Below, one piece after another: positions 16,794 through 52,169 of a stretch of DNA of 64,000 nt. The notes under the pieces are model-generated. The model was not told the origin of the DNA. It searched no databases and worked only from the letters and a program-made list of their open reading frames with translations. The stretch's first letter is position 1, and each line of letters begins with the position of its first letter. Source of the DNA: Mesostigma viride. Taxonomy: Eukaryota > Streptophyta > Mesostigmatophyceae > Mesostigmatales > Mesostigmataceae. The position numbers were made by a program, and so were the translations under genes. Location of the stretch: the NCBI GenBank assembly GCA_009746045.1, contig RPFO01000072.1:5956933-6020932 (forward strand), in the 5' to 3' direction.

Positions 16794-19700
16794 ATGGACA
16801 GCTCAGGAGCTTGCAGCCCCCCGCGCCAACTCCCGCGTCAGGAACCCAATCCGAAGCCAGGGGACGGTGCTGTGCATGACTCATATTGTAGTACAGTACT
16901 AGGTGCCGGCGCCCCTACTGACAGCGTCGGCAACGTTGTACGTGTGTCGATATCGATGGCGATAATGGATTCCGCTCAGGTGCACTTGGCCTCGGTTCAA
17001 TCACTGCCCATGCAGAACGGCGCAAGGGAGCATTTGCAGGCGCTTTGGGGCTTCCTTGATCGTTGTCTTTTGCAACAAGTGAACGTGGCAGACAACGCAA
17101 AGCAGGCTAACGTGAAGCTGAGAAGCATTCGCAAAGCTTCTGCCTCCCAGGTCCTGCTGAAAGACAATGGGTTGACATTCCAGGCGATTTTTGTCGACAT
17201 CTTAGCTCCTCACCTCAAGGAAGCGGCCAGACTGGCACTTTCGCACCCTGACATCTGCAGGCATCTCGCACTGGAGCTCGCCAGCTTCTGTAACTGGTTC
17301 TTGTGTGACAGTTTGCTGGCCCTCGCTCCGTTCGAGAATCCCAACAGCTACATAAAATGGAAGCTTGTTGAGAAACTTCTTCATCGTGATATTTGCGTTT
17401 ACCCTCGTCCAACCCAAGCCTGTTTGACACCGTTGACAAATGCGCAGGAGTTTGAGCCTAACAGCTTGCCACCTCCAGTGGCCCTCTTATCCCCTCTGCA
17501 GGTGTTCGTCCGGCTGGTGACGGCGCCAACGGAGGATCATTCCAAACGCCCTAGCTTTGCTGTGACTGACATTGAGGCAGAACAAGGGGTGTTGGAGTTG
17601 CTCGATAAGGCGTGGGCATTGTCACGAGGACCTATTCCACCCGGCCTTGACATTCAGCAGTTCTCACCACTTGTCGACGACTTATCTTGTCTGTGCGCCA
17701 GCGCCTTGTTTCCGCCTGTCCCTGCTGGCGTGGATTCTGCCCCTGGGGAAAGGGTGCCAGATGACGTTCAGTCTTTTGTCAATGCAGCCATTGCATCGGA
17801 CAAGTGTCAGGTCGGCAGCCGTGATGGTCCTTCCTCAAATTTAAAGTCACCTGCGAATATCGTGCTCGTTTACACCGATGGGCGGAAGGCCAAGCTGAGG
17901 GCAGGTGATGTGGTGCGACCGCGGCGATCTGCCTTGGGCCTGATCACTGGTATCTTGAGCACCGCCAGCGAGGCGAGCATTCTGCCTTCTGAGGAGGATC
18001 TAAAAGGTGGTGCAGCAGTGCTGTGCAACATGGGAGCATTTGCAGATCACGTCGATCTGGTTTGCTTGGATAAGAAGGACTTGCAGCTGTCCGAAGCTGC
18101 CCTCTCGCAGCTGCTGCGAGCAGTGGGCTATCGGCTGCCTGTCCTTGCATCGTTTGTCGACAACGTCCTCACCAAGCTGTTGCAGCGAGGTCTCGTGCGC
18201 AACGCCTTGGTTTGTGCTCGAGAAGTGTTGTCAACCCTTGTCACACGGGATGCCGGCACCGCCGGGCCGTCCGATCGCCCATGCGATGAGGTGCATAGTG
18301 GCCAGAAGGCGGCCTTCGCGGCCTTTTCGAGGATGCTTGGTGGGTGTCTGTCCAATTTTGCGCCCGGGGACCAGCTAGCTGTGCTTCAGGCACTGTCTGA
18401 AGCTGCAGTGGAGGCAACGTCCATCCCCACCCGTAAGCTCAGCCTGGAGACCTTCCTGGCGGTAGCCACCCGTATGCGCGAGAAGAATGCAGCGCTGGGT
18501 GTGGAGTCACTGCGCGCATTGGTCCGCTTCTACTATGTAACGGATGGCAGCAGCAAGGTGTCACACGATGCCGAAGAAATCGATGTAAGTCCTTGATGTA
18601 CATTGCCTGGTTGTGACTTTCCTTTGCATCTTATTTTTGTAAGCAAAGAACAGTTTATTACTAAGCCTTCTTTCCATTAGTTGTGACGTGTGATATCACG
18701 CGCATTTTTTTTTCTGATGGATTTCTGCTGAAAGTCTGTGCAAACGGGGTAGCGTTGGGGACAATCAAGAGACCAAGCGATAGCCGACGTGGTTTTGATG
18801 TGTGACCAGTAACCAGCTAAATATAGAAACACCTTATGCTTTTCTGTCATGTACTGGATGAGAATTGCCCCCTTTTCCCTTGTACTACTATTATTGTAAC
18901 TTATGCCACTCATTTTTTCAGCATGCACCTACCTGGCACCTGTCAAATAAACCAACAGACCGTATTCGGAGGAAAGCGATCTTTAATCTGTGACAAGTAA
19001 GCAAGTCCAGAATAGTCTTTATTGATTATTTAGAAATACACGGCAAACGCCATAGCCCGCGGCTAGACAACGTGTCAGTCGCCACGGTAGGCAGAGAGAG
19101 AGAGAGAGAGAGCAAGTGCGCAGGGATTGCAACTTATCTCAAACAAACCACACACAACACCAAGATTTTCTAGCAACGCGATTGGTCCAATCCACGACAG
19201 CGGATAGACCTGCACGAGTAGCGCGAGAGCTCACTAATGAAGTCAGCCGACTAATGCCAGTCACCGTGACAGACCGGCACTCTAGAGCCAGGTTGTCTAT
19301 AATAAACACGGATGCCAGCGACTACTGTAGGTGTGCTACAGGCGACGTACGGAAACTAGAAACTATTAACACAACACACACATTGAATGTGTCACGCGCA
19401 CAGACACTAATTACGGTCAGCCAGGTTCACTATAGAAAACATGTTCGTTAACATGCACGGAACATGCTGCCCACTTCACCTATTCCTCGACACCTAGTTG
19501 CACGGGTACCGTATGATAATTCACCCGCAGGCAATTGTTAAGGATGCCAACAGGTGCCATAGCATGTTCCTGCTACCAACGGTGAGGTAGAAAACTAGGA
19601 CTGCATCAGCATTATTCAGTAAACGGCCAGATCACGTATCAGGTCATCGGCATCTAAACACTAACGCCGTGTGGAAATTATAACACATGTTCCCCATGGT

Positions 19701-52169: not shown

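Follow-up and report, generated by a model that had tools for sequence, protein, structure and literature searches.

A giant single-chain AAA and vWA protein of Mesostigma viride, probably belonging to a eukaryotic family of midasin paralogs that is apparently undescribed

Introduction

Single-chain machines with six AAA modules are few; dynein and RNF213 are such rings, while VWA8, which is mitochondrial, has fewer AAA units and a single vWA domain. In a stretch of DNA from Mesostigma viride (64,000 nucleotides of contig RPFO01000072.1, positions 5,956,933 to 6,020,932 of the forward strand; henceforth the window), a preliminary description made from the letters alone had noted a six-AAA ring, an ASH-like region and three vWA domains in one predicted chain, which raises the question of what this protein is and how it relates to midasin (MDN1/Rea1). 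With such parts, a family would allow one to ask, in a natural experiment, which sites of the ring generate force and whether pulling by a MIDAS domain operates outside ribosome assembly.

Gene model and copies in the genome

Splicing of the window bore out the proposal that six exons with compatible phases join into one frame of 28,701 nt: on the forward strand, exons 16794-18584, 20472-22465, 23441-26725, 29223-46318, 46945-50714 and 51405-52169 (phases 0,2,2,1,0; GT...AG in all five introns) encode a protein of 9,566 aa with a single, terminal stop. Two database models correspond to this protein, namely P0001 (EukProt, Mesvir1 Mv01936-RA.1), identical to residues 1-7163, and P0002 (RA.3), identical to residues 2378-9566. 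As the two overlap and are letter-identical, each of the five junctions is present in some database model; past residue 7163, however, P0001 leaves the window frame for a different 3' part, and hence no single model contains all six exons. Additionally, when the window gene was set against its paralog at C224 (see below), third codon positions were the most divergent in each of the six regions compared, as expected for coding sequence. The features of the gene are collected in Table 1; in a Pfam scan, exon 1 and residues 5218-8055 of the protein each returned zero matches.

Table 1. Features of the window gene (positions in the window)
Feature	Position	Strand	Remarks
N-terminal region, residues 1-1029	16794..21767	+	spans exon 1 and the greater part of exon 2, with intron 18585-20471 between them; no domain recognised
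AAA1	21768..23525	+	GGTGVGKS / LLLDEL; predicted catalytic; contains intron 22466-23440
AAA2	24213..24875	+	GPTGCGKT / LLLDAI; lacks catalytic Glu; Arg finger retained
AAA3	25203..25955	+	GPAAVGKT / FLADEF; predicted catalytic
AAA4	26223..30372	+	degenerate P-loop GPTSCKSL; long insert; LLEDL; Arg finger retained; contains intron 26726-29222
AAA5	30730..31512	+	GPPGIGKT / ILLDEI; predicted catalytic; Arg finger gone (SVANLF)
AAA6	31900..33132	+	GDTGTRKT / VLLDNI; lacks catalytic Glu; Arg finger retained
Tail, residues 3661-6639	33133..42069	+	no midasin-linker relation detected in the tested part
ASH/Hydin-like Ig domain array, residues 6640-7290	42070..44022	+	first 250 residues best supported
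Post-ASH region, residues 7291-8574	44023..48500	+	contains intron 46319-46944
vWA1	48501..49268	+	midasin-type MIDAS, DNSGS
vWA2	49731..50498	+	midasin-type MIDAS, DISVS; midasin-like lead-in KKVF..KQRGGKREY
vWA3	50670..51998	+	DITES; VWA_4-type; no midasin match; contains intron 50715-51404
C-terminal end and stop	51999..52169	+	AVDYL (P0018 ends in IVDYL); fourth vWA of P0018/P0022 missing before the end

Among the AAA_5 matches above cut-off in the Mesostigma genome are four loci whose frames are very long. Two of these, C224 and C1106, are paralogs of the window gene, and the six exon blocks follow the same order in all three copies, with a block-by-block identity to the window gene of 54-74% (C224) and 31-56% (C1106). 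After splicing, the C224 paralog reads through 9,400 aa with no stop codon. In a search in which the phases of the window gene were imposed, junctions equivalent to introns 1, 2 and 5 were present in both paralogs, while for introns 3 and 4 the outcome was ambiguous in C224 and C1106 gave no clear junctions. The fourth locus, C1557, carries a 5,349-codon frame whose first half holds seven AAA_5 stretches together with the midasin lids AAA_lid_7 (168 bits) and AAA_lid_5 (99.3 bits); an acid-rich frame comes next, and after it a frame with a DDSRSM MIDAS. From these features, its exons being read unspliced, C1557 is taken as the ordinary midasin of the alga, separate from the window gene. In the window gene itself, AAA_lid_7 reached at most 20.8 bits (cut-off 22.7) and AAA_lid_5 was not listed.

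The family and its ring phylogeny

With exon 4 of the window gene as query, P0003 and P0004 were also matched, and the ring of P0003 in turn retrieved 29 proteins among 1129 scored candidates, 14 of which (including P0001) belong to the giant family. Outside Mesostigma the family comprises 13 protein clusters, with sources that include Rotaria rotifers (P0016, P0017, P0020, P0021) and the green alga Apatococcus lobatus (P0022); P0018 (EukProt; a Trinity transcript by its name) and P0025 (GEMP01) are further members, a GEMP01 accession being given for Hematodinium in the excerpts available of PMC6642578. The family is hidden behind its database labels, as P0021 and P0022 are called 'Midasin' in UniRef, and P0019 and P0023 are labelled 'MoxR-like ATPase'. 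No description of it was found among the matches listed in full-text searches of open-licence literature, and the words midasin or AAA are absent from the excerpted main text of the Mesostigma genome papers (PMC6947507, PMC7027972). The initial impression that no described family has this arrangement is to be amended in that the gene is one of three paralogs in the alga within a wider family.

In the ring tree, 15 family rings and 14 midasin rings formed two clades (SH-aLRT 100), so that the comparison with midasin that had been proposed places the window ring outside the midasin clade; C1557 grouped with the midasins, together with P0012 and with P0013 from Scenedesmus. The tree was built by a quick method without bootstrap, and the program warned of long branches and uneven composition; despite these warnings, the split is echoed by discrete characters. 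P0016, a near copy of P0017, was left out of both trees that were built, the bacterial P0011 (see below) was removed from the first and P0005 never entered it, while the C1106 row consisted of exons 1-3 and the entire open frame of exon 4, with a few intron residues possible, and the AAA1 row of C1557 is not a true midasin AAA1, that exon lying outside the sequence used. A second tree with an outgroup (12 family and 14 midasin rows; P0017, P0020 and W_C224 left out) again resolved two clades and agrees with a split of family and midasin before the sampled midasins diverged, although its outgroup is doubtful: the root (bacterial P0011 and P0005) is unsafe because the bacterial domains group together in a tree of single domains. 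That domain tree, with few columns and weak support, joins family and midasin at AAA3 (89) and AAA5 (63) and not at the other four positions.

The Rotaria members P0017, P0020 and P0021 stand in two separate places of the family tree, indicating at least two kinds of the gene in the genus. Among the 12 non-Mesostigma members of the tree, vWA1 was found in four, vWA2 and vWA3 in two and the ASH array in five; in many of the members without C-terminal parts, contigs, introns or gene models have probably cut the sequence short. P0025, by contrast, is labelled a complete ORF (4,909 aa) and yet showed neither ASH nor vWA domains, suggesting that shorter family forms may exist.

Active sites of the ring

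Active-site residues were scored by alignment columns. Across the family, the D-E pair of Walker B was present in AAA1 (14/14 rows covering the site), AAA3 (15/15) and AAA5 (15/15), and in none of the 15 rows in AAA2 (DA or DN), AAA4 (ED or EN) or AAA6 (DN, DG or RN). AAA4 lacked GxxxxGK[ST] in all 15 rows, 14 of which share a K-S/T-L ending. Six AAA units are present as first described, but not six intact Walker A/B pairs, as the P-loop of AAA4 is degenerate, AAA6 reads GDTGTRKT and the even-numbered modules are devoid of the catalytic Glu.

In the usual ring order, the arginine fingers of AAA2, AAA4 and AAA6 face the sites of AAA1, AAA3 and AAA5, while the finger of AAA5 faces AAA4. The finger Arg was found in all 15 family rows in each of AAA2, AAA4 and AAA6, in 15/15 in AAA3 and in 12/14 in AAA1 (P0024 and P0025 lack the AAA1 finger), whereas the AAA5 column contained R in none of the 15; P0020 and P0021 carry an Arg in the column adjoining the lost finger. 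Only AAA1, AAA3 and AAA5 are predicted to be catalytic on this pattern, while in midasin it is AAA2-5: the midasin rows showed D-E in AAA2, AAA3, AAA4 and AAA5 in 14/14 cases, with no Arg aligned in AAA1, which matches the published assignment of all catalytic motifs of Rea1 to AAA2-AAA5 (PMC11603028, in excerpt). The family ring follows the plan of midasin but is predicted to fire at other sites.

Tail, ASH array and vWA domains

Approximately 2,900 residues after AAA6 were compared with the midasin linker by hhalign, and all probabilities remained below 1% (best 0.7%) in a comparison that very remote homology might escape, while the ring control reached E 8e-38. Residues 2400-5690 of exon 4 as a tail query returned only the two Mesostigma models among 1010 scored candidates. 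The acidic region of midasin is absent, with a maximal D+E fraction per 300 aa of 0.13-0.18 in six family members as against 0.33-0.47 in seven midasins.

The ASH-like region held up under both profile and fold comparison. While the window stretch alone had no Pfam match, ASH-type Pfam models matched up to four of the five family sequences scanned, and among solved chains a five-sequence family profile matched Hydin (4e-25), FAP65 (1.4e-9) and CEP192 (5e-7). The 22 best matches of a fold search were chains of ciliary central-apparatus structures; the model used was of low confidence, and beta-sandwich arrays match widely, including alpha-2-macroglobulins. The two structure models of this study had mean pLDDT values of 52.8 and 52.7, i.e. 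low confidence. Hydin, FAP65/CFAP65 and CEP192 thus have the ASH/Ig array in common with the window family by profile and by fold; none of them is known to possess an AAA ring or a vWA domain.

Three vWA domains are indeed present, as had been described, though they are not of one kind. vWA1 and vWA2 of the window gene reached the Pfam cut-offs, while vWA3 remained below (VWA_4, 21.2 bits against 27), the same model matching vWA3 in all three family sequences scanned. Family-only vWA profiles were run against 17 midasins and midasin-like proteins: the vWA2 profile matched 15 of these at a domain E <= 1e-3 and 16 at E <= 10, and the vWA1 profile four and six, respectively, in each case best at the C-terminal MIDAS, while the vWA3 and vWA4 profiles matched none of the 17 even at E <= 10. 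Profile searches of the PDB with vWA2 and vWA1 placed 8ql1 and midasin on top (chain A of 8ql1 is listed as NDE1, while the entry title gives an MDN1-MIDAS/NLE1-UBL complex), and this complex was also the top fold match of a weak structure model of vWA2. vWA3 had no match in the PDB at E up to 1. The MIDAS residues D, S, S, T and D of vWA2 are retained in 5/5 rows, together with the midasin-like lead-in; vWA1 has DNSGS in 7/7 rows, its MIDAS Thr being replaced by Ser in the three Mesostigma copies and in P0021. P0018 and P0022 carry a fourth vWA (DESGS and DASGS, respectively) after vWA3, which the window gene lacks. A search of viral contigs for relatives of vWA2 gave 23 pattern matches, none of them a relative.

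The midasin-type MIDAS of vWA1 and vWA2 marks the window gene as a midasin paralog, and an unrelated fusion was rejected on the same ground. Judged from these comparisons, both the ring and the MIDAS have a common ancestry with midasin, whose derivation is not recognisable in the remaining tail.

Discussion

We consider it likely that the window gene belongs to a eukaryotic family of giant midasin paralogs, apparently not described before, whose proteins would combine a ring working at AAA1, AAA3 and AAA5 with an ASH anchor, a MIDAS grip on clients and a midasin-like pulling action. The gene model, the copies, the family and its clade, the active-site pattern and the domain homologies that form the base of this reading are read from sequence; hydrolysis, anchoring, client binding and pulling are what we infer from them, and the function as a putative mechanochemical remodeller is plausible. 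The six AAA modules of one chain would fold into a ring, in which ATP would be hydrolysed at AAA1, AAA3 and AAA5, with AAA2, AAA4 and AAA6 as partners that supply arginine fingers. The Hydin/CEP192-like ASH domains may fasten the protein to a microtubule-based structure such as that of a cilium or basal body, while the two midasin-type MIDAS domains, together with the third vWA, could bind clients via Mg2+ and an acidic ligand that is possibly ubiquitin-like. As in midasin, whose mechanism (PMC11603028, in excerpt) served as the model for this step, ATP turnover would set the tail, or a docked MIDAS, in motion, thereby pulling the client from an assembly.

Rotifers bear cilia, and flagellate stages occur in Hematodinium. 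Together with Mesostigma, itself a flagellate (PMC7027972, in excerpt) whose genome gave many dynein matches, these organisms suit a ciliary role; Apatococcus, however, has the protein while the literature text searched makes no mention of a flagellate state, and the ciliary role stays inferred for this reason. A further-reaching form of the same reading is offered tentatively and with some doubt: that the family is an additional type of single-chain six-AAA machine, next to dynein, midasin and RNF213, whose separation from midasin took place before, or close to the time of, the last common eukaryotic ancestor. Its ring would then work in three strokes, live and dead sites alternating strictly, with the ASH domains as tethers to ciliary or centriolar structures and a pair of MIDAS grips by which clients are pulled. 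The dynein-type AAA_6 model scored 29.6 bits in the window gene, above its cut-off of 25.2, compared to up to 541 bits in the dyneins of the alga.

Midasin remains the system to which the window gene is most readily compared, and one alternative reading would be that it is the enlarged midasin of the alga, still engaged in 60S ribosome assembly. The two share a single-chain ring of six AAA_5 modules, for which midasins are the closest and best-scoring relatives among solved chains, a C-terminal MIDAS of the same kind and longer inserts in some even modules, and UniRef goes as far as naming P0021 and P0022 after midasin. Nevertheless, we regard this reading as scarcely credible: the separate locus C1557 has the AAA_lid_5, the AAA_lid_7, the acidic exon and the DDSRSM MIDAS exon of a midasin, whereas the family forms its own clade with different catalytic sites. 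The window gene furthermore has two MIDAS-type vWA domains and vWA3 where midasin has one C-terminal MIDAS, possesses an ASH array, lacks the acidic region and any detected relative of the linker, and is much longer. The initial supposition that it is not an ordinary midasin is upheld by the separate midasin gene and the position of the ring. It is also very improbable that two neighbouring genes, one for the AAA ring and one for the ASH and vWA domains, were joined in error. The region is divided between two JGI models, the end of P0001 differs and vWA domains were not seen in eight of the 12 non-Mesostigma tree members; against this, a single open frame of 5,749 codons connects the ring with the ASH array, P0002 stays in frame from within AAA4 up to the C-terminal end, P0018 (AAA2-6, ASH and four vWA domains in one frame) and P0022 each unite ring, ASH and vWA domains in one chain, and the three Mesostigma copies keep the same order.

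The remaining alternative accepts the same family and assigns it to cytosolic defence or to substrate unfolding, in the manner of RNF213 or of bacterial MoxR-vWA conflict systems, with the ASH domains as generic protein-binding repeats. MoxR-vWA pairs are known from bacterial conflict systems (PMC7159879, in excerpt), and several copies occur in Mesostigma as well as in Rotaria. We nonetheless judge this unlikely, as Pfam at E up to 0.1 revealed no RNF213-type E3 ligase module or RING in the window gene, nor any other ubiquitin-ligase or effector domain, and as, among solved chains, the nearest matches of the ASH array are Hydin, FAP65 and CEP192. To return to the family of midasin paralogs, a published gene may already belong to it: a 7,479-residue gene of the bdelloid Rotaria magnacalcarata, interrupted by a retroelement, of unknown function and with 'partial similarity to midasin' according to excerpts of PMC7943196. 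Its product is probably of the same family and comes from the same species as P0021.

Additional observations

A bacterial look-alike was encountered at L032:5001-19505 in a Candidatus Omnitrophota MAG. The 4,835-aa chain encoded there (P0011) has six D-E Walker-B matches and a C-terminal MIDAS that aligns with that of midasin and, as far as can be told from its sequence, is a bacterial single-chain six-AAA/MIDAS protein. Its odd and even AAA modules form two groups in the domain tree. P0005 (7,557 aa) and P0040 (7,137 aa) align with P0011, and the Pfam domains listed for these two are of HEAT type.

Within the window, positions 27300-28585 in intron 3 consist of hexanucleotide-type arrays (AGTAGC, GCAACA, TCCTCC) that give rise to long open frames on both strands. 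Outside the gene, an RVT_1 fragment (77 bits) on the minus strand at 58496-59443 is probably a retroelement remnant, and positions 7058-7549 are occupied by 13 copies of a 38-base tandem unit.
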